Source: Candidatus Methylobacter oryzae (GTDB taxonomy: Bacteria > Pseudomonadota > Gammaproteobacteria > Methylococcales > Methylomonadaceae). From it: DNA of 48,724 nt. The translations under genes and the position numbers were made by a program. Below the pieces are notes generated by a model. That model had not been told where the DNA came from and ran no database searches. It saw only the letters and a list, made by a program, of their open reading frames with translations. Where the stretch lies: positions 1 to 48,724 of the forward strand of contig CAMAUL010000016.1 in NCBI GenBank assembly GCA_945861405.1, written 5' to 3'. Shown here one piece after another: positions 15,968-36,712 of the stretch (its first letter is position 1; each line of letters begins with the position of its first letter).

Positions 15968-16043
15968 GGGTTGTTAGCTCAGTCGGTAGAGCACCGCACT
16001 TTTAATGCGATGGTCCCGGGTTCGAATCCCGGACAACCCACCA
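15968..16043 (+). tRNA. tRNA-Lys (anticodon UUU)
   Basis: The acceptor strands GGGTTGT (15968-15974) and ACAACCC (16033-16039) pair. The anticodon loop CTTTTAA contains TTT at 16001-16003, the T arm has GGTTCGAATCC, and CCA is encoded. The sequence is very close to E. coli tRNA-Lys. Confidence 0.97.
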
Positions 16044-24874: not shown

Positions 24875-27025
24875 ATGCTTGAAAAACTTAAAGAAGCTCT
24901 TGGAGCATTTGGTTCGTTTTTTTTTATGCCGCCATTAACGAATCCTAAACTGGCTATTGATACCTTACGGATTAGTGAGGCTAAATACCGCAGCTTATTC
25001 GAAAACATTGATCAAGGCGTAATTTACCTGGACGCGGCGGGTATCGTGATGGCGGTCAATCAGGCTGCCGAACAACTGCTGGGACTGCCACGGGACGTCA
25101 TTATCGGTCGTAAGTTTGCCGATTCCTGCTTTAAAGTTATCAAGGAAGATGGATCAACTTTCCCGGAAGAGCAACAGTCTTCAGCATTGGCGTTGCATAC
25201 CGGTAAGCCTGTGGAAGGTGTGGTGATGGGGCTGTTTAATGCTGAACGGCAAAGTTATATCTGGGTTGTTGTTAATTCAGTACCCGAACTTCGGGTGGGC
25301 GAGCAACATCCCTATCAGGTGTTAATGACCTTGACCGATGTTACCCGGCAAAAGCAGTCCGAAGGCAAACTGAGCATGGCATCGGTGATTTTCAATAATA
25401 TAGGTGAGGGTATTTTTGTTACCGATAAAGACAAAAAGATCATCTCGGTTAACGAGGCGTTTACTACCATAACCGGCTTTACCCAGCAGGATGTTTATGG
25501 GAGGAGCGCTGGTTTTTTGCAAGCAAAGAAAAAGAACCTAAAAAGCGATGACGAATTAAGCGGTCTTACCGGTAATGTAACCAGCTGGCAGGGCGAGGTG
25601 TGGCGTCGCCATAAAAGCGGCATAGACTTTCCTTCCTGGACTACCGTTAGCGAGGTCAGGGATTCAGGCGGCGAAGTACTCCATTATGTTCATGTGTTCA
25701 TGGATATAACGCATTTTAAGAAGGCGCAGGATCATCTGGGTTTTTTGGCCTATCACGACCCCTTGACCAAATTGCCCAACCGGCTGTTACTGAAGGATCG
25801 CATTGATCATTCATTGCAAACCGCATTGCGGGAAGGCTCAGAGGCAGCCGTGTTATTCCTTGATCTTGATCGGTTCAAGGGTATTAACGATACCTACGGT
25901 CATGCGGTCGGCGACGGCTTGTTACGGGAGGTCGCAAAACGCATAAAAAATCTGGTCAGAAAAGAAGACACGGTTTCACGTTATGCCGGTGATGAATTTG
26001 TAGTGTTTATGGAAAATATTCCTGACGCCAAAAACCCTGCCAAGCTGGCGCAAAAGTTGATCGATACCTTTGACGCCCCCGTTTATATTAAAGGCTTTCG
26101 GTTAAAAATATCGCTCAGCGTGGGTATCAGCCTGTTCCCGCAGGATGGCAAGGATACGGATACGTTGATTAGAAATGCCGACGCGGCCATGTACCGGGCC
26201 AAGAAAGAAGGTCGGAATAACTTTCAATATTATAGCTTGGAGCTAACCGCCGAAGCGTTCGAGAAAATGTCGTTGGAATGCGCGTTACGCCAGTGTCTGG
26301 ATAGACATGAGTTGATTTTGTATTATCAGCCTCAGGTTTGCCTTAAAACCGGAAAATTGGTGGGTGTCGAGTCCCTGGTGCGTTGGATGCATCCAACGCA
26401 GGGGCTGATGTCGCCCGACCAATTTATACCCATAGCCGAGGAAAGCGGGTTTATTGTAGCGATTGGCGAATGGGTGCTGCAAAACGCCTGTATACAGATG
26501 CGCCGCTGGCTGGATGAGGGATTGCAGGTCAATAAAATGGTCGTCAATGTGTCGGCAGTTCAGTTTTTACGCTCCGATTTTGTGGCAGCGGTTGAGCGGA
26601 TATTGCATTCGACAGGGCTAGCGCCGTCTTATCTTGAGCTGGAATTGACCGGCGGCAGCTTTATGGATAATTCCGAACAAACCATCAAGGCGCTCAACCG
26701 GTTGGTTGCAGCGGGGATCGATTTGACGATTGACGATTTTGGCGTGGGCTGTTTTTCGTTTAACAACTTAAAACGCATTCCGGTAAAAAAATTGAAAATT
26801 AACAGTACATTTGTCGTTGATGTGTTGAACAACGCTAACGATGAGGACATTACCCGCGCTGTGATTGCTTTAGGCCATGGCTTGCATTTACAGGTTATTG
26901 CGATGGGGATTGAATCGAATGCCCAGCAAAACCGGCTGATGGATTTAGGCTGCGATGAAGGCCAAGGTTATTTATACAGTTCCCCGGTATTGCCTTGGTC
27001 GAATATTTTTCAACAGTTGATGTGA
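24875..27025 (+). CDS. PAS-PAS-GGDEF-EAL protein with a degenerate EAL domain
   Basis: 716-residue cyclic-di-GMP protein. Two PAS domains (about 32-150 and 165-285) precede a GGDEF domain (about 290-450) with AGDEF at 371-375 and an inhibitory RxxD site (R362-D365), so diguanylate cyclase activity is plausible. The EAL domain (about 465-716) keeps the first Glu (VESLVRW), the Asn of NVSA, the Glu of ELELT, Asp-Asp of DDFG and the Gln of GQGYLY. But the catalytic Glu of the usual AEGVE is Met677 (AMGIES), KID is KIN, and the TE of LTE is TG. It is predicted to lack phosphodiesterase activity. The start ATG follows AAGGAG; an ATG 5 bases earlier is out of frame. No membrane segment is visible. 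Confidence 0.92.
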   Translation: MLEKLKEALGAFGSFFFMPPLTNPKLAIDTLRISEAKYRSLFENIDQGVIYLDAAGIVMAVNQAAEQLLGLPRDVIIGRKFADSCFKVIKEDGSTFPEEQQSSALALHTGKPVEGVVMGLFNAERQSYIWVVVNSVPELRVGEQHPYQVLMTLTDVTRQKQSEGKLSMASVIFNNIGEGIFVTDKDKKIISVNEAFTTITGFTQQDVYGRSAGFLQAKKKNLKSDDELSGLTGNVTSWQGEVWRRHKSGIDFPSWTTVSEVRDSGGEVLHYVHVFMDITHFKKAQDHLGFLAYHDPLTKLPNRLLLKDRIDHSLQTALREGSEAAVLFLDLDRFKGINDTYGHAVGDGLLREVAKRIKNLVRKEDTVSRYAGDEFVVFMENIPDAKNPAKLAQKLIDTFDAPVYIKGFRLKISLSVGISLFPQDGKDTDTLIRNADAAMYRAKKEGRNNFQYYSLELTAEAFEKMSLECALRQCLDRHELILYYQPQVCLKTGKLVGVESLVRWMHPTQGLMSPDQFIPIAEESGFIVAIGEWVLQNACIQMRRWLDEGLQVNKMVVNVSAVQFLRSDFVAAVERILHSTGLAPSYLELELTGGSFMDNSEQTIKALNRLVAAGIDLTIDDFGVGCFSFNNLKRIPVKKLKINSTFVVDVLNNANDEDITRAVIALGHGLHLQVIAMGIESNAQQNRLMDLGCDEGQGYLYSSPVLPWSNIFQQLM

Positions 27026-27059
27026 TTGACAAGGGAACCTTAAGTTAACATTGTCATAC

Positions 27060-27408
27060 TGGCGAAAAGGCTATGCGGGACGGGGGGTAACCCATACGCA
27101 TCAAGCTAAGAAAAAAACCAATCATTGTGCAGCCAAATAGAACACGACTGACACTGATAAGACGTATTTTTGAAAAGCTAAATCCCGAGTTTTTCTGGTT
27201 TCCAAGTTTCAGCTTAGGAGCCTACTCAGGCGTAGGCCGGAATAAGGCCATCCAAGCGCGTAGCGCGAGGTGGCGTTTCCGGCTTGTTGGATGATGTTTG
27301 CCGGAAACGCCAGTTCTCGCTGTCGCTCGAACCGGCTTATTCCGGCCTACACATGGCTTAGCTTGATGCATATGGGTTTGCAACCCCGTCCCTAACGTTT
27401 TTGCGATG
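27060..27408. repeat. Nested palindromic element, about 350 bp
   Basis: The outer arms are diverged inverted copies: 27060-27115 contains GGGACGGGG, CCCATACGCATCAAGCTAAG, and 27355-27408 carries its complement with CATATGCATCAAGCTAAG. Inside are an exact 15-bp inverted pair, GTAGGCCGGAATAAG at 27232-27246 and 27336-27350, and an exact 12-bp pair, TGGCGTTTCCGG at 27271-27282 and 27301-27312. No protein is encoded. It looks like one mobile-type repeat inserted inside another. Confidence 0.75.
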
Positions 27409-27544
27409 CCCGAGCAATGCGGTTACGGTTAACCAATGCAAAACGATTCGGACGGGCAACATGCCTATAGTCCTGCTTGGTTGGAAATTTCGAAGAATAG
27501 GTGTAACTGCTCTCCCCTTTGTTAACCGCAAAGCCGATTCTTAC

Positions 27545-27606
27545 AGTCCAAAGCCGGCTTTGGACTCCAGAAAGCGAGCTATCGGAGTTCAAAGCTGGCT
27601 TTGAAC
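27545..27606. repeat. Paired CAAAGC(C/T)GGCTTTG palindromes
   Basis: AGTCCAAAGCCGGCTTTGGACT (27545-27566) is a perfect palindrome, and GTTCAAAGCTGGCTTTGAAC (27587-27606) is nearly so. The pair repeats the arrangement at 21141-21191. Confidence 0.85.
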
Positions 27607-27642
27607 ATTACAGAAGTGAGCATTAGATAGGGTGAGTAGTTA

Positions 27643-27670
27643 CGAATAGGTATTCATACGAATTTTATCG
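27643..27670 (+). promoter_or_regulatory. TAGGTAT motif, copy 3
   Basis: CGAATAGGTATTCATACGAATTTT then ATCG, 20 of 24 bases identical to the motif before the gene at 24418, with a matching downstream TTAGATT (27685-27691). It ends 67 bases before the ATG at 27738, similar to the 57 bases of copy 2. Confidence 0.45.
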
Positions 27671-27737
27671 CCTAGTTTTTGATGTTAGATTGACTACGTA
27701 CTCATACCAATTGTTCCGCTATGCCGTTGCACATAAA

Positions 27738-27980
27738 ATGGAAAATGGAGGATATTCCTTCGAGATGTGCAGGGGGTGGGTTGTGGCCGGTTTTAATTCA
27801 GTGCAAAAATCAAATAGGGAGGCTTTCGACAAGGAAAGATTTCAAGAAATGGTTGCAGAACGCGCTTACTGCAAATCCGAAAAAAGGGATTTTGTAGGTG
27901 GGCATGAAATGGACGATTGGCTTGAAGCCGAATCGGAAATTAAAAATCAATACGTCTACTGGTTCCAGGATTCTGAATAA
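27738..27980 (+). CDS. DUF2934-like small protein
   Basis: About 80 residues. The C-terminal half, MVAERAYCKSEKRDF then GGHEMDDWLEAESEI, matches the DUF2934 pattern (IAxRAY...G..DWLxAExE), a short domain of unknown function. The frame is open from a TTG at 27690, but that would put the start in the promoter-like region just after the TAGGTAT motif, so I prefer ATG 27738; neither has a good ribosome-binding site. It precedes the M41-like gene by 44 bases in the same direction and may be in one unit with it and ftsH. Function is unknown. Confidence 0.6.
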   Translation: MENGGYSFEMCRGWVVAGFNSVQKSNREAFDKERFQEMVAERAYCKSEKRDFVGGHEMDDWLEAESEIKNQYVYWFQDSE

Positions 27981-28024
27981 TTTTTCAGGTCGGATGATGT
28001 TGACTTAAAACTACGGTGCTTACT

Positions 28025-28780
28025 ATGAAAAGAAACAAGATAACTGAGACGCTCAGTCAGGATAAATTAATAGAACATAAACAGCGTGTTGCTTTTCATG
28101 AAGCAGGACATGCGGCGGGCATTCATTTAAACAACAAAGCCAGACAGCTGCCAGCGGTTTTTTTCAAAATCATCTTTAAAGAGATGAACGGCGTGACAGC
28201 AGCGGATGTCATAGCCTATCAAACAACCCATGACGATTGTATTGCCCGAGTGGAAGGCGGACGCTTAATCGACTTGTTGCCGCCGTCTATTGATAGCCTG
28301 ATGAGTGAATTAACGGAATACAGTGACGCAATGGTGCAATTGGTCAAGGATTACCAGGTAGCCTTTGAGGCGGATATTATTAACCTGCTGATCGGGCCGT
28401 TGACTGAAGCTAAACATGTCGCTGCCACCGATGACGAGATGTTTAATCATAAGTTAATCGATCTAAAAGCATTGAAAAACTATGGCGGCAGTTCTGATCT
28501 TGCCTTGGCTAATGAATATTTACAAAGTTTTTCTGCCGATAAACAACAACAAGATGAAAAATTGGATGAGTTGTTTGCCGTCGCATTTGACTTTGTAAAT
28601 AATGATGCAAACTGGGCCGCAATCACCAAATTGGCTGATTATATTCTTAGCAGTAGTAAAAATATTATTGGCTGCGAAGAGATCGTTTTAATGCTCGACC
28701 AGTCGGTAGCTCATTTTCAAAATCGAAGAACCATGGTAAGGTGTCAATGGCCAGCAGAACTGAGTCAACATCGCTATTAA
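28025..28780 (+). CDS. Stand-alone peptidase-M41-like protein without AAA+ domain
   Basis: 251-residue soluble protein with [11 protein letters not shown] at residues 22-32, the same zinc-binding HEAGH as in the FtsH encoded next. Further on, LLIGPLTEAKHV followed by GGSSDLALANEYL (Asp158) parallels Fts[15 protein letters not shown] and [13 protein letters not shown], where the Asp is the third zinc ligand. So the peptidase fold of FtsH appears to be present alone, with no Walker motifs and no membrane helix. The frame is open from GTG 28016; ATG 28025 (MKRNKITETL) looks more natural. It ends 17 bases before ftsH, so the two are almost certainly co-transcribed. Whether it is an active peptidase, an FtsH modulator or a decoy is unknown. 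Confidence 0.75.
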   Translation: MKRNKITETLSQDKLIEHKQRVAFHEAGHAAGIHLNNKARQLPAVFFKIIFKEMNGVTAADVIAYQTTHDDCIARVEGGRLIDLLPPSIDSLMSELTEYSDAMVQLVKDYQVAFEADIINLLIGPLTEAKHVAATDDEMFNHKLIDLKALKNYGGSSDLALANEYLQSFSADKQQQDEKLDELFAVAFDFVNNDANWAAITKLADYILSSSKNIIGCEEIVLMLDQSVAHFQNRRTMVRCQWPAELSQHRY

Positions 28781-28797
28781 CATAAGGCATCATTACA

Positions 28798-30747
28798 ATG
28801 GATGAGTCAAAGAACAACATTATAAAGACTGTACTCACGTTGCTGGGTAATGTCTTTGTGTATCTGAAAAATTTATTGATGGTCGGCTTTAGTTATTTAT
28901 CCAAAGAAGAACCGGAGCGGGAACTCAATAAACCGCTGGATAAAAAAATATTCAGCTCCAGAAAAGGGAAAATTCTTTTTTTTGCGTTGTTATTAATCCT
29001 GATGCTGACCTTTATTAATAGCGTTCAGGAAGTGCAGCGTGACGAGATCCCCTACAGCCAATTTATCAAGCTACTCAAAGAGACAAAAATTGACAAGGCG
29101 GTGGTAACCGAGCGGTTTATTACCGGTGTTATCAAGTCTGATGATCCGAAACAGCCCGCCAAAAACTTCATGACGATTCCGTTGTGGCAAAACGACCTTG
29201 CTCAAATGCTGGAGCAGAACAAGGTAGAGTTTGTGGTCAGAAGCGGCGAGAACTGGTTGACCAATCTTTTTTTCAACTGGGTCATCCCGATGTTAATCCT
29301 GGTGCTAATCTGGTCATGGGTCATACGCCGCACCACGGCTGGTGGCGCGCAGTCTTTCCTTAATTTGGGTAACAAAATTCACATCCATCAGGACACCCAA
29401 GCCAAGATTACCTTTGATGATGTGGCTGGTGCCGATAGCGCCAAACAGGAACTTAACGAGTCCATCGATTTTCTAAAAACCCCGGAAAAATTCCAAAGAT
29501 TAGGCGGGCGCATGCCCAAAGGCGTGTTGATCGTGGGGCCGCCCGGAACCGGGAAAACCCTGCTGGCGCGTGCTGTTTCCGGGGAAGCGCAGGTGCCGTT
29601 CTTTAACATCAGCGGCTCTGAATTTATCGAGCTGTTTGTCGGCGTGGGCGCAGCCAGAGTGCGGGAGCTTTTTGAGCAGGCGCGGAATCAAGCGCCCTGT
29701 ATCATATTTATTGATGAACTCGACGCGATTGGCCGCACCCGTGGCGGCCCGGTGATGATCGGCGGGCATGATGAGCGCGAACAGACCCTGAACCAGCTGC
29801 TGACCGAAATGGACGGTTTTGATCCCTCAGTCGGCGTAGTGGTGATGGCGGCAACCAACCGCCCTGAAGTGTTGGACAAAGCGCTGCTGCGCTCCGGGCG
29901 TTTCGACCGCCAGATCGTTGTTGATAAACCGGATTTGCGCGACCGTGTTGAGATTCTTAAATTGCATACCAAAGCGCTGACGCTGGCTAAAAATATCGAC
30001 CTGTCAATCATTGCCAGGCGTACGCCGGGACTGGTCGGCGCAGACCTTGCCAACATCGCCAATGAAGCGGCGATCATGGCGACGCGGGTCGGCCACAACA
30101 AAGTCGAAAAAGAAGACTTCGAGGCGGCTATCGACCGGATATTGGCCGGGCCGGAAAAGAAGAACCGGGTGTTAACTCCCGACGAAAAGCGCCGGGTAGC
30201 TTTTCATGAAGCAGGCCACGCGATGGTCGCCGAGCATGTGCCGACCGGCCAGCCGGTGCATAAGATTTCCATTATTCCGCGTGGCGTGTCGGCATTGGGT
30301 TTTACTTTGCAATTGCCGGTAGAGGAAAAGTTCTTATCGACCGAAGATGAACTTAAAGACCAGCTTGCCATCTTGCTGGGCGGACGCATGGCCGAACAGA
30401 TTGTATTGGGAAGCATCTCAACCGGCGCCCAAAATGACCTGGAAAAAGCCAGCGAGATTGCCCGCAACATGGTCTGCAACTTGGGTATGAGCAAAAAAAT
30501 GGGGCCGTTGACTTACGGCAAACGCCAGCAGCTCCAGTTTCTGGAAACAGAGGTCTCGGAGTACCGCAATTACTCCGATGAGACAGCCCGTCTGATTGAT
30601 ACCGAAATAATAGCGCTGGTCGAAGAAGCCGAAACGCGGGCTCGTGAGATCATCACCGCAAACAGGAAGGCTCTGGAAAAATTGGCTGACTTATTACAAG
30701 AGAAGGAAGTGATTAACAGGGATGAAATGTTGGCATTGCTGGGGTAG
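28798..30747 (+). CDS. ftsH: ATP-dependent zinc metalloprotease FtsH, N-terminally extended
   Basis: Membrane-bound AAA+ protease that degrades short-lived and misassembled membrane proteins. Membrane helices are at about 59-75 ([18 protein letters not shown]) and about 160-178, with a periplasmic part between them. Walker A is GPPGTGKT (247-254), the pore motif is LFVGVG, Walker B is [11 protein letters not shown], and the zinc site is HEAGH at 470-474 with Asp547. The core is complete. E. coli FtsH enters the membrane within its first residues; here about 55 residues precede the first helix, including a hydrophobic stretch (11-34). This and the accessory setting suggest an additional, specialised FtsH rather than the main copy, but the rest of the genome is not visible. 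Confidence 0.95.
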
Positions 30748-30770
30748 TTGAGAAGAGTCTCATTGTCCCT

Positions 30771-31036
30771 CATTCCCATGCAGCGCGTGGGAACGAGAAA
30801 AATGGAGTACAAGGCTGGCCTTGTACTACCGCTCCTCCATACTGCAAGGCCAGCCTTGCACTCCAGTCGCTGAAAATGGGCAACCCTTAACTTAAGGGAG
30901 TGACTGTCTCGTTCCCACGCGCTGCGTGGGAATGCATCCAAGGCGCGCTGCGCCGCGAGTCGAAGTGAATACAGGTCTTACCAACTCAGGACGCAGCGCG
31001 TCCAGCACTGCATTCCCACGTAGCACGTGGGAACGA
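30771..31036. repeat. Cluster of palindromic repeats of two families
   Basis: The stretch between ftsH and the cheB-cheR gene has no gene but five palindromes. Three are of the TTCCCACG(C/T) family: 30771-30797, 30912-30932 (TTCCCACGC-gct-GCGTGGGAA) and 31013-31033 (TTCCCACGT-agc-ACGTGGGAA). Two are of the CAAGGC-GCCTTG family: AGTACAAGGCTGGCCTTGTACT at 30806-30827 and TGCAAGGCCAGCCTTGCA at 30843-30860. Confidence 0.85.
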
Positions 31037-31086
31037 GGATACGAGGATCTGCTTATCAATAATGTAACGCCCCACAGCAAATTAAA

Positions 31087-31115
31087 TTGACTTTGCCCCG
31101 ATAAAACACTATTAA
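31087..31115 (+). promoter_or_regulatory. Candidate sigma-70 promoter for the cheB-cheR fusion
   Basis: TTGACT and TATTAA are separated by 17 bases, about 65 bases upstream of the start at 31181. Confidence 0.5.
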
Positions 31116-31180
31116 ACCAGCTGGACTCAAAACATTTACCTGCCCGCCGCATCAGTGCCGCGCAAACCCAGCATCTTGCC

Positions 31181-34099
31181 ATGACCCAGAATAAAACCCC
31201 ATCAGCGCAACCGGATAATCAGCCCCAACAAGACAAAGGCTTCCCCATTGTCGGCTTGGGCGCTTCCGCCGGGGGGCTGGAGGCCTTCGAGCAGTTCTTC
31301 CGCCATGTCCCTGCCGATAGCGGCATGGCCTTCGTGCTGGTATCGCATCTCGATCCCAGCCACGCCAGCATCCTGACTGAAATACTGCAACGCATCACGG
31401 CCATGCCGGTGGTTGAGGCGCAAGATCGGATGCAGGTTATGCCTAACCATGTCTATGTGATTCCTCCTAACCGCGACATGACCATCTACCACAGCTCATT
31501 GCAACTGAGCATTCCGGCAGAACCGCGTGGACAGCGCATGCCCATTGATGCGTTCCTGCGTTCGCTGGCCGAAGACCAGTCCGAAAAGGCCAACGGCATT
31601 ATTCTGTCCGGCACCGGCACCGACGGTACGCTGGGTTTGCGTGCGATCCTCGGTGCAGGCGGCATTACGCTGGCGCAGGAGCCGACTACCGCCAAATTCG
31701 ACGGCATGCCGGTTAGCGCTATTCAGGCAGGCTACGTCACCCATATTTTACCGGTCGATAAAATGCCCGAAGCGCTGCTGTCCGGCTTGCGAACACTGAT
31801 CCTTCCGTCCCCCGCCGCTACACCCACGATTGCATTAAGTGGTATCAATCGCATCCTGTTGCAAATACGCACCAGCACCGGTCACGATTTCTCGTTATAC
31901 AAGAAAAGCACGATCACCCGCCGCATCCAGCGGCGCATGTCGCAGAACGGCATTGAGAGCACTGAGGGTTATATCCGTTACCTGAAGGAACATCCGTCCG
32001 AGATTACGGCGCTGTTCAAGGAACTGCTGATCAATGTCACCAATTTCTTCCGCGACCCGGAGGCTTTCGTGGCGCTGAAGAAGGACATCTTGCCGCCACT
32101 GCTTATGGACAAGCCGGATGACTATATTTTCCGCGTCTGGGTGGCAGGTTGCGCTACCGGCGAGGAGGCCTATTCCATTGCCATCGTGTTGCGTGAGCTG
32201 ATGGATGAAAACCGCTATCCGTTTAGAGTGCAGCTATACAGCACCGACCTTGCCGAGGATGCTATTGCCACCGCCAGAGCCGGTTTTTATCCGCCCAATA
32301 TTGCGCCGGATGTCTCGCCTGAACGATTGCGCCGTTTCTTTATCAAGGAGGACGGGGGTTTCCGGGTCAAGAAGGACATCCGCGAGATGCTGGTGTTTGC
32401 CGTTCAGAACGTTATCAAGGATCCGCCGTTTACCAAGTTAGACCTGCTCAGCTGCCGCAACCTGATGATTTATTTGGAGCCGGAGCTGCAAAACCGCCTG
32501 ATCCCGGCCTTTCATTACGCGCTCAAACCGGCCGGTGTGCTGTTTTTGTCGCCATCGGAGGGCATCGGCAACCATACCGAGCTGTTTACGTCGATTAACC
32601 GCAAGTGGAAATTCTATCGCGCCACCCTTACCGCCGCCTCAACCCGGGCCATGTTGACCAGCAATTTAAACTGGACTGCGGAACAGCCGCACAAAGCGCC
32701 GGAAGAAGTCATAAAAACCGTCAGGGAGACCAACTTGGCCGAACTGACCCGGCGCATGTTGCTGCAATACTATGCCCCCGCTTCGGTGGTGTCGGATCTC
32801 AAGGGCAATATCCTGTATGTCTATGGCGAGACTGGAAAATACCTGCGCCCTGCGCCAGGACACGCTACCCTGAATATGATCGAGATGGCGCGGGAAGGCC
32901 TGCAACTGGAGCTGCGCGCCGCGATCCAGGCCGTCAACCAGGGCACACAAGCACTGAATCGGGAACTGTCGGTCAAGACCGACGGCGATTTTCACCCGGT
33001 GCAGCTTAGTGTGCGAACGCTGAGTAATCCGAATGACCAGCAAAACCTACTTCTGACCAGTTTTCAGGACATAACGCCCTCGGCGTTCGCCAAACTGCCA
33101 CGCAAGCGTAGTTCCAAACCGGATGAACTGCGTCATATCGAGGAGCTGGAGTACGAGCTGTCCTACACCAAGGAAAATCTCCAGGCTACCATCGAGGAAC
33201 AGTATGCGTCTAATGAGGAGCTTAAATGCACCAACGAAGAGATGCAATCGACCAATGAAGAGCTGCAATCCACCAACGAAGAGCTGGAGACTTCCAAAGA
33301 GGAATTGCAATCGATCAATGAAGAGCTGGTCACCGTAAACTCCGAGCTACAGGCCAAAATTGTGCAACTGGCCGACATGCAAAACGACATGAAGAACCTG
33401 CTCGACAATATCCAGGTCGGTACCATCTTCCTCGATCAACACCTGATCATCCGGCGTTTTACCCGCGATGCGGCGCAAATCTACCGGCTGGTTGCCTCGG
33501 ATGTAGGTCGCGCATTGAGCGACATTAAAGCCGAGCTGGCGGGCGATGAGCTGCTGGATGCGGCCCATGCCGTGCTTGACAATCTGGTGCCCATCGAACG
33601 CGAAGTAAAAACGCTGGGCGGCAACTTCTACCTGGCACGCATCCAGCCCTACCGGACGCTGGAAAACATGATCGACGGCGTGGTGCTGACTTTCACTAAT
33701 ATCACCGAGCGTACGAAGGCTATAGCCGTACAGGAAGCGGGGCTGTTGGCCGAAGGCATCGTCAACACGGTGCGCGAACCGCTGCTGGTGCTCAATGCCG
33801 AGTTGAAGGTCATCACCGCCAGCCGCTCGTTTTACCAGGGCTTTCAGGTGACTGCCGAACAGACGGTGGGTAGGCCGATTTATGAGTTGGGCGACGGTCA
33901 ATGGAATATCCCCGTCTTGCGCGACTTGCTGGGAGCCGTTTTGTCGAACAATCAGGCTTTTGAGGGCTATATGGTGGCGCATGATTTTCCTGGTATCGGC
34001 TACCGCAAAATGCTGCTGAACGCCAGCAGCATCATTGGCCAAACCGGCGAGCCGCAATTAATTTTACTGGCGATGTATGATGTGACTGATAAGGGGTAG
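31181..34099 (+). CDS. CheB-CheR-PAS fusion protein
   Basis: 972-residue cytoplasmic signalling protein. A CheB methylesterase domain (about 20-205) has the Ser29 motif GLGASAGG, His56 in SHLDPSH and the Asp of GTGTDGTLGL, so its triad is complete; no receiver domain precedes it. A CheR domain (about 220-490) has NVTNFFRDP and the SAM-binding VAGCATGEEAYS. A PAS-like part (about 525-625), a long coiled coil of NEELQSTNEELETSKEEL type (about 650-725) and two PAS domains follow (about 735-850 and 865-970). It stops at the last PAS, without kinase or GGDEF. No chemoreceptor or other che gene is nearby, so an isolated sensory role is more likely than classical chemotaxis. Confidence 0.9.
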   Translation: MTQNKTPSAQPDNQPQQDKGFPIVGLGASAGGLEAFEQFFRHVPADSGMAFVLVSHLDPSHASILTEILQRITAMPVVEAQDRMQVMPNHVYVIPPNRDMTIYHSSLQLSIPAEPRGQRMPIDAFLRSLAEDQSEKANGIILSGTGTDGTLGLRAILGAGGITLAQEPTTAKFDGMPVSAIQAGYVTHILPVDKMPEALLSGLRTLILPSPAATPTIALSGINRILLQIRTSTGHDFSLYKKSTITRRIQRRMSQNGIESTEGYIRYLKEHPSEITALFKELLINVTNFFRDPEAFVALKKDILPPLLMDKPDDYIFRVWVAGCATGEEAYSIAIVLRELMDENRYPFRVQLYSTDLAEDAIATARAGFYPPNIAPDVSPERLRRFFIKEDGGFRVKKDIREMLVFAVQNVIKDPPFTKLDLLSCRNLMIYLEPELQNRLIPAFHYALKPAGVLFLSPSEGIGNHTELFTSINRKWKFYRATLTAASTRAMLTSNLNWTAEQPHKAPEEVIKTVRETNLAELTRRMLLQYYAPASVVSDLKGNILYVYGETGKYLRPAPGHATLNMIEMAREGLQLELRAAIQAVNQGTQALNRELSVKTDGDFHPVQLSVRTLSNPNDQQNLLLTSFQDITPSAFAKLPRKRSSKPDELRHIEELEYELSYTKENLQATIEEQYASNEELKCTNEEMQSTNEELQSTNEELETSKEELQSINEELVTVNSELQAKIVQLADMQNDMKNLLDNIQVGTIFLDQHLIIRRFTRDAAQIYRLVASDVGRALSDIKAELAGDELLDAAHAVLDNLVPIEREVKTLGGNFYLARIQPYRTLENMIDGVVLTFTNITERTKAIAVQEAGLLAEGIVNTVREPLLVLNAELKVITASRSFYQGFQVTAEQTVGRPIYELGDGQWNIPVLRDLLGAVLSNNQAFEGYMVAHDFPGIGYRKMLLNASSIIGQTGEPQLILLAMYDVTDKG

Positions 34100-34306: not shown

Positions 34307-34489
34307 GGAGCAAATATCTGTCCCTGCCGGAAAACGTGTGCATAACAACCAAACACAATGCTGGAGCGTCACTTACTGCATCCCCTGCTAAGTAATCGCA
34401 CTAATTGCTTGAAAAAGTTAAACCTCCTATCCTAAAAACCTTTGCAAATCATCTGCCGAACTACCTTCAAAGAGCAGCAAGGAGTTTAC

Positions 34490-36712
34490 GTGCCAAACCA
34501 AACCAGCGAACCGGATCAACAAGCAAGGCTGCGTATCGATGCCGAAGAGCGGCTAGCCATTTCTCCACCATCGCCATCGCCTTCTGTGGAAGAACTGTTG
34601 CATGAACTGCGGGTGCATCAGGTCGAGCTGGAGATGCAAAACGAGGAGTTGCAGCGCACCCGTGCCGACCTGGAGGCATCCCATAACCGCTATGTAAATC
34701 TTTATGAATTCGCTCCCGTCGGCTACCTCACTCTCACGCCAGAGGATGAGATTGTCGAGGCTAATCTTGTTGCCGCCGGGCTGCTTGGGGTAGGTCGCAA
34801 CCATCTGCTCAATAGCTATTTCACCAACTGGGTCGCGCCAGAATATTGCGACCGCTGGTATCTTCTGCTCAAAAATATGCAACAGCAGGAAGGACAGACC
34901 AACTTCGAACTGATGCTCAAACGCGGCGATAGCCACTTTCCTGTCCGGCTGGACTGTCTGTCGATAATGACTGACGATCAGACTCCGATGTTGCGTATTA
35001 CGCTCACCGACATCACCGAAAGTAGGCGTGCCGAAGAGGAGTTGCGCATCGCCGCCGTCGCCTTTGAGGCGCAGGAAGGCATCATGATCACCAATGCCGA
35101 CAAGGTGATTTTGCGGGTCAACCGGGCTTTTACCGAGATCACCGGCTACAGCGCCGAAGAGATCGTAGGGCAGACTCCCCAGCTATTTAAATCGGGACGC
35201 CACAGCGCGGATTTTTACGCTGAGATGTGGGAAAGCATTAACAGCACCGGATCCTGGCACGGCGAAATTTGGGATCAACGCAAAAATGGCGAGGTCTATC
35301 CCAAATGGGTGACCATCACGGCGGTGAAGGACAAGGACGGAGCCATTAGTCATTATGTTTTCCTGCATACCGATATATCCGAACGCAAGGCTTCGGAAGA
35401 GGAAATTAATCAACTGGCCTACTTCGATCCACTGACGGCATTGCCGAATCGGAGGCTGCTGCTGGACAGGCTGAAACAAGCGCTGGCGACCAGTGCGCGC
35501 AGTGAGAAATACGGCGCACTGCTGTTCATCGACCTGGATAACTTCAAGGCGCTTAATGACAATCTGGGGCATGACATGGGCGACATCTTGTTGCAGCAGG
35601 CCGCGCAGCGCCTTCTTGCCTGTGTGCGGGAGGGTGATACGGTGTCTCGTCAGGGCGGCGATGAATTTGTCATCATGTTGGAAGAGCTGAGCGAGTATTC
35701 TGAAGAAGCTGCTGCCAAGGCTAAAACCATCGGCGAGAAAATTCTTTACTCACTGAATCAGACCTACCAGCTCACTTGCCACGAGTACCTGAATACACCG
35801 AGCATTGGCGTCACGTTGTTCGTCAATCATCATCATACTATCGGCGCACTGCTGAAACGGGCGGATATTGCCATGTACGGAGCCAAGGCAGCAGGCCGCA
35901 ATACTTTGCGTTTCTTCGATCAGGACATGCAAAAGGCGGTGACGACGCGTGCCGCATTGGAGGCGGACTTGCGCGCTGCGCTGGCGAACAATCAGTTTGA
36001 GCTGTATTTTCAACGGCAGGCGCTGCATGACGGAACAGTCGTTGGCGCTGAAGTGCTGTTACGCTGGAACCACCCTGAGCGGGGTTTTGTCTCGCCCGTT
36101 GAATTCATTCCACTGGCTGAAGAAGTCGGACTGATCATACCCATTGGGCTGTGGGTATTGGAAGCAACTCGCGATCAACTTAAACACTGGGAGGATTATG
36201 CGCAAACCCGGCATTTGCAGCTTGCCATTAACGTCAGCGCCCGTCAGTTTCATCAATCCGAATTTACCGAGCATGTGTGCGCCATGCTGAAAAAAACCAC
36301 TTACAAAGCGGTTCGACTTAAACTTGAATTCACCGAGAGCTTGGTGTTCGAGGACATCGAAGACACCATCGCCAAAATGCAGCGACTCAAAGCAATAGGC
36401 GTGAGTTTCTCTATGGATGATTTCGGTACCGGTTATTCATCACTGACCTACCTGACCCAGCTGCCGTTCGATCAACTAAAAATCGATCAGTCTTTCGTGC
36501 GCAACATCGGTGACAAACCTGCCGATGCAGCAATCGTACAGACCATTATCGGTATGGCCAAAAACTTAGGGATGGACATCATCGCCGAGGGTGTAGAAAC
36601 GGAAGAACAACGCGCATTTCTGGAGCTTCACGGTTGCCATACTTTTCAAGGCAACTTGATCGGCAGGCCAATGCCGATGGCGGAGTTTGAACGTTCATTG
36701 GGGATTTTGTAG
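34490..36712 (+). CDS. PAS-PAS-GGDEF-EAL protein with intact catalytic motifs
   Basis: 740-residue cyclic-di-GMP enzyme. An N-terminal helix with VHQVELEMQNEELQRTRADL leads to PAS 1 (APVGYLTLTPEDEI), then PAS 2 (EEIVGQTPQLFKSG), GGDEF (GGDEF at 389-393, RxxD I-site five residues before) and EAL. The EAL domain has AEVLLRW, INVSARQF, LEFTES, MDDFGTGYSSL, LKIDQSF and AEGVETEEQ (Glu700), so phosphodiesterase activity is expected. The start GTG 34490 follows AAGGAG by 7 bases; an earlier TTG at 34442 lacks such a site. The stop TAG is part of a GTAGGGGC repeat end (36709). The N-terminal sensory segment resembles that of the histidine kinase at 21938. Confidence 0.93.
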   Translation: MPNQTSEPDQQARLRIDAEERLAISPPSPSPSVEELLHELRVHQVELEMQNEELQRTRADLEASHNRYVNLYEFAPVGYLTLTPEDEIVEANLVAAGLLGVGRNHLLNSYFTNWVAPEYCDRWYLLLKNMQQQEGQTNFELMLKRGDSHFPVRLDCLSIMTDDQTPMLRITLTDITESRRAEEELRIAAVAFEAQEGIMITNADKVILRVNRAFTEITGYSAEEIVGQTPQLFKSGRHSADFYAEMWESINSTGSWHGEIWDQRKNGEVYPKWVTITAVKDKDGAISHYVFLHTDISERKASEEEINQLAYFDPLTALPNRRLLLDRLKQALATSARSEKYGALLFIDLDNFKALNDNLGHDMGDILLQQAAQRLLACVREGDTVSRQGGDEFVIMLEELSEYSEEAAAKAKTIGEKILYSLNQTYQLTCHEYLNTPSIGVTLFVNHHHTIGALLKRADIAMYGAKAAGRNTLRFFDQDMQKAVTTRAALEADLRAALANNQFELYFQRQALHDGTVVGAEVLLRWNHPERGFVSPVEFIPLAEEVGLIIPIGLWVLEATRDQLKHWEDYAQTRHLQLAINVSARQFHQSEFTEHVCAMLKKTTYKAVRLKLEFTESLVFEDIEDTIAKMQRLKAIGVSFSMDDFGTGYSSLTYLTQLPFDQLKIDQSFVRNIGDKPADAAIVQTIIGMAKNLGMDIIAEGVETEEQRAFLELHGCHTFQGNLIGRPMPMAEFERSLGIL

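Follow-up and report, generated by a model that had tools for sequence, protein, structure and literature searches.

What might an FtsH-type zinc site do once it has been separated from its motor? FtsH-type peptidase domains are parts of ATP-driven membrane machines, and the DNA examined here, a stretch of 48,724 nucleotides (the window) from a 3.58 Mb assembly of 154 contigs, places a gene for a small HEAGH-containing protein directly ahead of a complete ftsH. FtsH is described as such a machine in the accessible parts of two accounts (PMC6629908, PMC10850787). We therefore asked what the small protein is, how widely it occurs and whether its position before ftsH defines its function, drawing on the following features of the window.

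24875..27025, plus strand: PAS-GGDEF-EAL protein, upstream of the 251-aa gene and on the same strand (domain scan)
27690..27980, plus strand: small DUF2934 protein, 44 bases upstream of the 251-aa gene (Pfam)
28025..28780, plus strand: 251-aa soluble M41-like HExxH protein (open reading frame, Pfam scan, family alignment)
28097..28111, plus strand: codons of HEAGH, residues 25-29, with two putative zinc histidines and the putative catalytic Glu (sequence, conservation, M41 specificity)
28394..28411, plus strand: GPLTEA, residues 124-129, Glu128 being a possible counterpart of Glu533 in GGRMAE of FtsH (a non-significant hhalign run only)
28484..28498, plus strand: GGSSD, residues 154-158, Asp158 being the proposed third zinc ligand (conservation; the match to FtsH Asp547 is not above shuffles)
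28798..30747, plus strand: accessory FtsH, complete, 649 aa, its first membrane helix preceded by a segment some 57 residues long (Pfam, TIGR01241, hydropathy)
31181-34099: CheB-CheR-PAS protein, past ftsH (domain scan)
34442-36712: large open reading frame, past the CheB-CheR-PAS gene (ORF list)

The layout given in the original prediction was reproduced exactly: the small gene runs from an ATG at 28025 to a stop codon ending at 28780, the ATG of ftsH follows at 28798 after a gap of 17 bases, and HEAGH and GGSSD occupy residues 25-29 and 154-158 of the product. The prediction had also denied this protein an AAA+ module and a membrane helix, and we agree on both counts, since Pfam and TIGR01241 scans gave no AAA match and the top 19-residue Kyte-Doolittle mean was 1.08, as against 2.32 and 2.15 for the FtsH helices. 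Hydropathy maxima over 121 family rows reach 2.01 in one distant member (L250) and 1.64 in the next highest, and the protein is probably cytosolic. The downstream gene is, as had been claimed, a full FtsH (TIGR01241, 774.2 bits; cut-off, 600) with FtsH_ext, AAA, lid and M41 domains in Pfam, two strongly hydrophobic stretches, and the motifs HEAGH at 470-474 and GAQND at 543-547; M41 domains exceed the Pfam cut-off at three places in the genome of the window. The DUF2934 gene is a possible first gene of an operon, and its relatives form a cluster (c3) of 11 small genes in 11 loci near family copies, the window counted. A promoter scan of 27000-31300 found four sites, no excess over the mean of 5.1 in shuffled sequence. 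The intergenic stretch 30752-30880 holds a palindromic GTACAAGGC..GCCTTGTAC element that resembles a terminator on the minus strand and is perhaps a dispersed repeat, and the window also contains a 5S rRNA gene (21-136) and a tRNA gene (15968-16040).

We next consider whether the 251-aa protein belongs with the M41 peptidases. No Pfam or NCBIfam model reached its cut-off on the window protein; Pfam M41 (PF01434) scored 13.2 bits, where the cut-off is 29.9, and at nine other family places its 13.9-16.0 bits were likewise below cut-off. The 65 scanned members matched 18 Pfam families at E<=1, of which M41, matched by 49 members (best E 0.0027), was the sole one with HExxH, and the NCBIfam FtsH model matched 29 of 90 members (best E 0.013). 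A profile built from 90 members (A2) and compared with the PDB at E up to 10 returned four sequences, all FtsH or AFG3L2 and all weak (E 0.34-1.2). When the full family profile was aligned by hhalign with 68 M41 domains (67 fetched plus that of the window), the probability was 91.9 and the score 51.6, the highest of 20 column shuffles being 19.7. The HExxH region (residues 12-60) scored 51.5 with M41, 20.5 with M48 and 30.2 with M50, in a comparison that is slightly uneven because the M48 and M50 controls, taken from the same genome set, were whole open frames of 29 rows each and longer than the M41 domain alignment. These scores indicate that the HExxH helix is M41-like in particular.

Outside this helix the likeness fades. 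Without residues 1-45 the hhalign score against M41 is noise. A run over residues 105-180 pairs GPLTEA with GGRMAE and GGSSD with GAQND, at a score of 13.5 that falls within 40 column shuffles (mean 11.7, maximum 19.4). For residues 185-230, 12 of 100 shuffles scored at least as high as the real order; residues 160-230 stood narrowly above all 100 (17.4; shuffle maximum, 16.5) and residues 105-230 above 99 of 100; both of the latter two runs lay residues 167-185 on the FtsH helix that precedes GGRMAE, which argues against the proposed motif order. With the N-terminal block fixed and the downstream columns shuffled, the local score was reached by 76 of 100 shuffles, whereas in global mode the real order exceeded all 100 (46.0 vs a maximum of 40.5). 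The global alignment inspected, from an earlier run, pairs GGRLI with GGRMAE and leaves the proposed ligands unpaired. Column shuffling also destroys helix periodicity, so the result in global mode is suggestive and not decisive. By eye the motif order is that of FtsH (HExxH, G..xAE, GG/GA..D, C-terminal I..EE), with spacings of 103 against 63 residues from His to Glu, 30 against 14 from Glu to Asp and 60 against 95 from Asp to the C-terminal motif. The alignment of Asp158 with Asp547 of the window FtsH put forward in the original prediction is consequently unconfirmed: the order agrees, the spacing differs and the hhalign score lies among those of shuffles.

In FtsH crystal structures Asp495 is the third ligand. 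The accessible part of one account mentions Glu479 of FtsH alongside both HEXXH histidines (PMC6629908), and by eye Glu128 and Asp158 of the window protein could be the counterparts of Glu479 and Asp495. Compared with the M41 domain of FtsH (PF01434, TIGR01241), the protein shares the HEAGH helix and a similar stretch preceding it and, to the eye, the order of the G..xAE and GG/GA..D segments; it differs in spacing and in having neither the AAA+ module nor the membrane helices. The idea of an M41-type protein thus stands for the HExxH helix, which is that of M41 and not of M48 or M50, and is unproven for the remainder, which in local mode does not rise above shuffles. On these alignments the family would best be called M41-like and not be filed as a member of M41 or FtsH, an M41 fold beyond the HExxH helix being putative.

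The residues expected of a metal site are strongly conserved. In an alignment of 121 rows, in which one locus appears twice (L024 = L227) and one row (L076) has no N-terminus, all 120 rows that reach the HExxH motif have H25, 117 of them have E26 and 116 have H29. Position 158 is D in 114 rows, E in five and G in two, both of the latter from the doubled locus L024/L227, so that 119 of the 121 rows carry an acid; D117 and E128 are invariant (121/121). The His/His/acid set is thus retained in most homologues, and zinc binding is predicted for them. HExxH residues have been lost at five distinct loci (L063, L068, L073, L227 and L248), and the locus that has no acid at position 158 also has no H29, which fits a shared metal site without proving one. 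The N-terminal MKRN (window 28025-28036) is kept across genera, R3 in 109 of the 117 rows with a residue, and is followed by a variable linker; it may be a short linear motif. The 251-aa gene is under purifying selection, with dN/dS values of 0.105-0.179 against five relatives (0.052-0.127 for ftsH; dS exceeds 1 in one pair).

The single gene of the original prediction proved to be one of a multi-copy family, of which the genome of the window holds four members, the three additional ones being 66, 50 and 44% identical to the window protein. In a sample of one methanotroph family, which we take to be the GTDB Methylomonadaceae, 121 of 151 genomes and 26 of 29 genera had matches at E<=1e-5; the 20 listed among the 30 family genomes without a match measure 1.0-3.3 Mb. 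Among genomes of relatives, 25 of 41 matched at E<=0.001, all within the bacterial family of the window, and the 23 that belong to the genus of the window carried two to seven matches each, fragments included. At this threshold none of the 16 genomes that represent the order's other families matched, and a class-wide sample of 369 genomes gave two matches, both inside the methanotroph family. A relaxed search of the order (251 genomes, E<=0.1) added 20 genomes outside the bacterial family, all at E 0.02-0.1, where the match is perhaps to the HEAGH of FtsH itself. As far as sampled, the gene family is confined to one family of methanotrophs. Two of its copies lie in tandem at L237:4051-5675, with 287 bases between them.

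Other origins and identities were considered and set aside. Phage and plasmid records gave no match to the family, and its sole relative on a viral-collection contig (L317) reads as host DNA; there, by open reading frames, the copy lies between a dehydrogenase gene, of a type that also flanks the host copies L102, L103 and L106, and phage tail-like genes, so the contig is probably a prophage beside a host copy. We accordingly rejected a mobile or phage origin. A role in defence was rejected because three family proteins scanned with PADLOC gave weak matches (best E 0.0068), the IetA matches belonging to the AAA module of FtsH, and identities with SCAPER_N, PRK12708 and PHROG entries were dismissed as weak matches.

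To gauge how firmly the small gene is tied to ftsH, we counted 64 FtsH genes of the subfamily of the window (at least 65% identity, window included), leaving out nine lower-scoring rows, among them a partial gene of 77% identity (G511). In a first set of 30, 20 were linked to a family gene on the same strand, one was tail-to-tail with one and nine were unlinked; a second set of 34 added one linked gene, two repeat loci from the first set not being recounted. Homologues of the 251-aa protein do therefore adjoin ftsH: a family gene stands directly upstream in 21 of the 64, in five genera (g1, g289, g299, g303 and g305). The other 43 have no partner directly upstream (one tail-to-tail, 42 with none in the fetched flank, 'unlinked' here meaning outside that flank, which in G533 comprises just 239 bases of contig). 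In five of the 19 listed linked genomes of the first set the two genes overlap by eight bases, which fits translational coupling, and in the window they are probably co-transcribed. Most family copies examined have no ftsH behind them, and several genomes (for example G407, G430 and G433) carry both genes separately.

A tree of 120 rows, quickly built, midpoint-rooted and with many open forks, placed all 23 ftsH-linked copies in one of two main clades (59 of 120 rows, SH-aLRT 98); three linked copies added later joined the 23 in a group of 61 of 122 rows (SH-aLRT 96), and the linked copy of G474 lies outside the trees. We refer to the clade with linked copies as clade A. The other main clade (61 tree rows; 60 loci, clade B) contains no copy in front of ftsH, and one of its members, L240 in genome G488, lies tail-to-tail with an ftsH. 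Pieces of ftsH persist behind L016, L108, L109 and L076, and at L110 an MHYT-PAS-GGDEF-EAL gene (L110:2055-5054), which overlaps the family copy by eight bases, has come to start with the opening codons of ftsH, apparently a gene start captured by duplication. Such remnants suggest that the pair was duplicated and that ftsH then decayed several times while the small gene was retained. The original prediction had treated the pair as one system, and what survives of this is its recurrence in five genera, not its generality, since 43 of the 64 FtsH genes have no partner directly upstream. As to its suggestion of a subunit mixing into the FtsH hexamer, so many FtsH genes are partnerless and no clade B copy precedes ftsH that the protein is unlikely to be simply an FtsH subunit, and the independence of the family from ftsH elsewhere argues against an obligate one.

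Signalling genes are a further feature of the surroundings. The segment 24875-36712 of the window is rich in them, and EAL-GGDEF genes lie upstream of family copies in several relatives too. Where a clade A copy (55 loci) has a gene on its strand within 1 kb upstream, that gene is of the signalling kind in 23 of 38 cases, compared with 42 of 316 background genes more than 2.5 kb away (Fisher 6e-10, not corrected for shared ancestry), and a signalling neighbour accompanies 15 of the 35 clade A copies without ftsH as against 7 of 60 in clade B (P 0.0009), P values that are overstated because the neighbour domain models are small, each having been built from one to eight examples, and because related loci are not independent. 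Signalling neighbours are not enriched in clade B (7/60). The 20 clade A copies counted as followed by ftsH include one with a remnant (L016); the neighbour count left out L243 (gene unselected), four duplicate loci, one copy that is truncated, and L032, L038, L042 and L044, which are short loci carrying the pair. The kinds found near the one clade are c-di-GMP, two-component and chemotaxis genes, and further neighbours, over both clades, include CheB, a hybrid kinase, a chemoreceptor, EAL proteins and a receiver-HD protein.

A receiver domain (PF00072) is absent from the window protein and present in two of 65 scanned members. L068 and L073 are fusions with a C-terminal receiver domain (E 1.6e-21 and 3.1e-22, respectively) and stand before histidine kinases; L068 has lost Glu26 and L073 has lost His29. 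Response regulators with an enzymatic output domain exist, CheB being an example, and the two fusions resemble them in joining a receiver to an enzyme-like domain. They differ from the CheB type in that the receiver is C-terminal and a residue of the zinc site is lost in both.

Our search of the open-licence PubMed Central literature found no paper on such a family, and the nearest known systems differ from it. Plant FtsHi proteins retain the AAA module. In the accessible parts of two accounts they are FtsH-related and presumed proteolytically inactive (PMC6460958, PMC8850778), which makes them comparable, as far as those parts go, with the few members here that have lost zinc-site residues; the 251-aa family as a whole is motor-free and has mostly retained the zinc motif. 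Pseudomonas aeruginosa clone C carries an accessory FtsH2 in a protein-quality-control gene cluster, and hetero-oligomers with FtsH1 are mentioned (accessible parts of PMC6629908 and PMC10850787). To that extent it offers a second FtsH like the accessory one of the window, but the neighbours named in a figure legend (PMC6629908) include no ATPase-free HExxH partner.

Taken together, the catalytic residues kept in most copies, the signalling genes around clade A copies and the pairing with FtsH in one branch suggest that the family clips or presents particular proteins in a regulated way. We tentatively favour a soluble, ATP-independent, signal-linked M41-like zinc peptidase that is co-expressed with FtsH in the branch of the window, a reading that falls just short of probable. 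Such a protein would work without an ATPase through its M41-type HExxH helix, and a site of this type without a motor would presumably be limited to segments that are exposed or unfolded. Its targets might be particular signalling or regulatory proteins, cut in a regulated, ATP-independent manner, and members with a lost zinc site would bind in place of cutting. Since the 251-aa gene of the window branch is probably co-expressed with the accessory FtsH, the two proteins most likely act on the same substrates, and they may cooperate by a division of work in which the soluble protein clips or presents substrates that FtsH extracts and degrades. A more far-reaching version, which we regard as unlikely, is that in one methanotroph family an FtsH-type protease core was separated from the ATP motor to become a signal-controlled regulatory protease, multiplied beside sensor kinase, c-di-GMP and chemotaxis genes; the receiver-fused pseudo-proteases would then be phosphorylation-controlled decoys or adaptors, and one branch would be hard-wired to its own full-length FtsH.

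The confinement of significant similarity to the stretch around HEAGH invites a different explanation, namely a zinc protein of another, possibly new, fold that has only this helix in common with M41, whether through convergence or through very distant descent, and has a regulatory function. The spacing to the remaining motifs is unlike that of FtsH, D117 and E128 are kept more strictly than Asp158, and the best downstream sub-region alignment is out of the expected order, all of which speak for a separate fold; however, the helix resembles that of M41 specifically, the motif order by eye is that of FtsH, and the global alignment surpassed every downstream shuffle. We consider a different fold possible, if on the unlikely side.

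Other explanations concern the meaning of the pair. The 251-aa protein might be a non-proteolytic regulator that docks on the protease ring or the N-terminal segment of the accessory FtsH and controls it or delivers substrates to it, its HExxH binding without cutting. The tight pairing in five genera, the eight-base overlaps and the five loci with a naturally broken zinc motif are as such a regulator would have them. A docking protein would have no need, however, for a catalytic Glu kept in 117 of 120 rows, and the many subfamily FtsH genes without an upstream partner, together with a clade B in which L240 comes no closer than tail-to-tail, also weigh against this role, which we judge unlikely too. 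The pairing may even be without functional meaning, a duplicating gene having landed before ftsH once and been inherited there: every linked copy placed in the tree is in one clade, as a single origin would have it, and the ftsH pieces behind L016, L108, L109, L110 and L076 are what a gene duplicated with fragments of its neighbour would leave. The linkage is nevertheless found in five genera with differing upstream genes, and the genus of the window has preserved a short gap or overlap between the two genes, making an accidental pairing distinctly improbable.

What is new here is a motor-free M41-like protein family with a biology of its own; it would be categorically new only if its fold or its control by signals were demonstrated. 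Should the signal-linked peptidase reading be true, these methanotrophs would possess a regulatory protease family that is new, is present in 26 of the 29 sampled genera and has as many as seven matches in a genome, and it would become testable what an M41-type site does without a motor. Should the protein turn out to be non-proteolytic, it would still represent an uncharacterised family that is widespread among bacteria of ecological importance, and would be a candidate regulator of FtsH.
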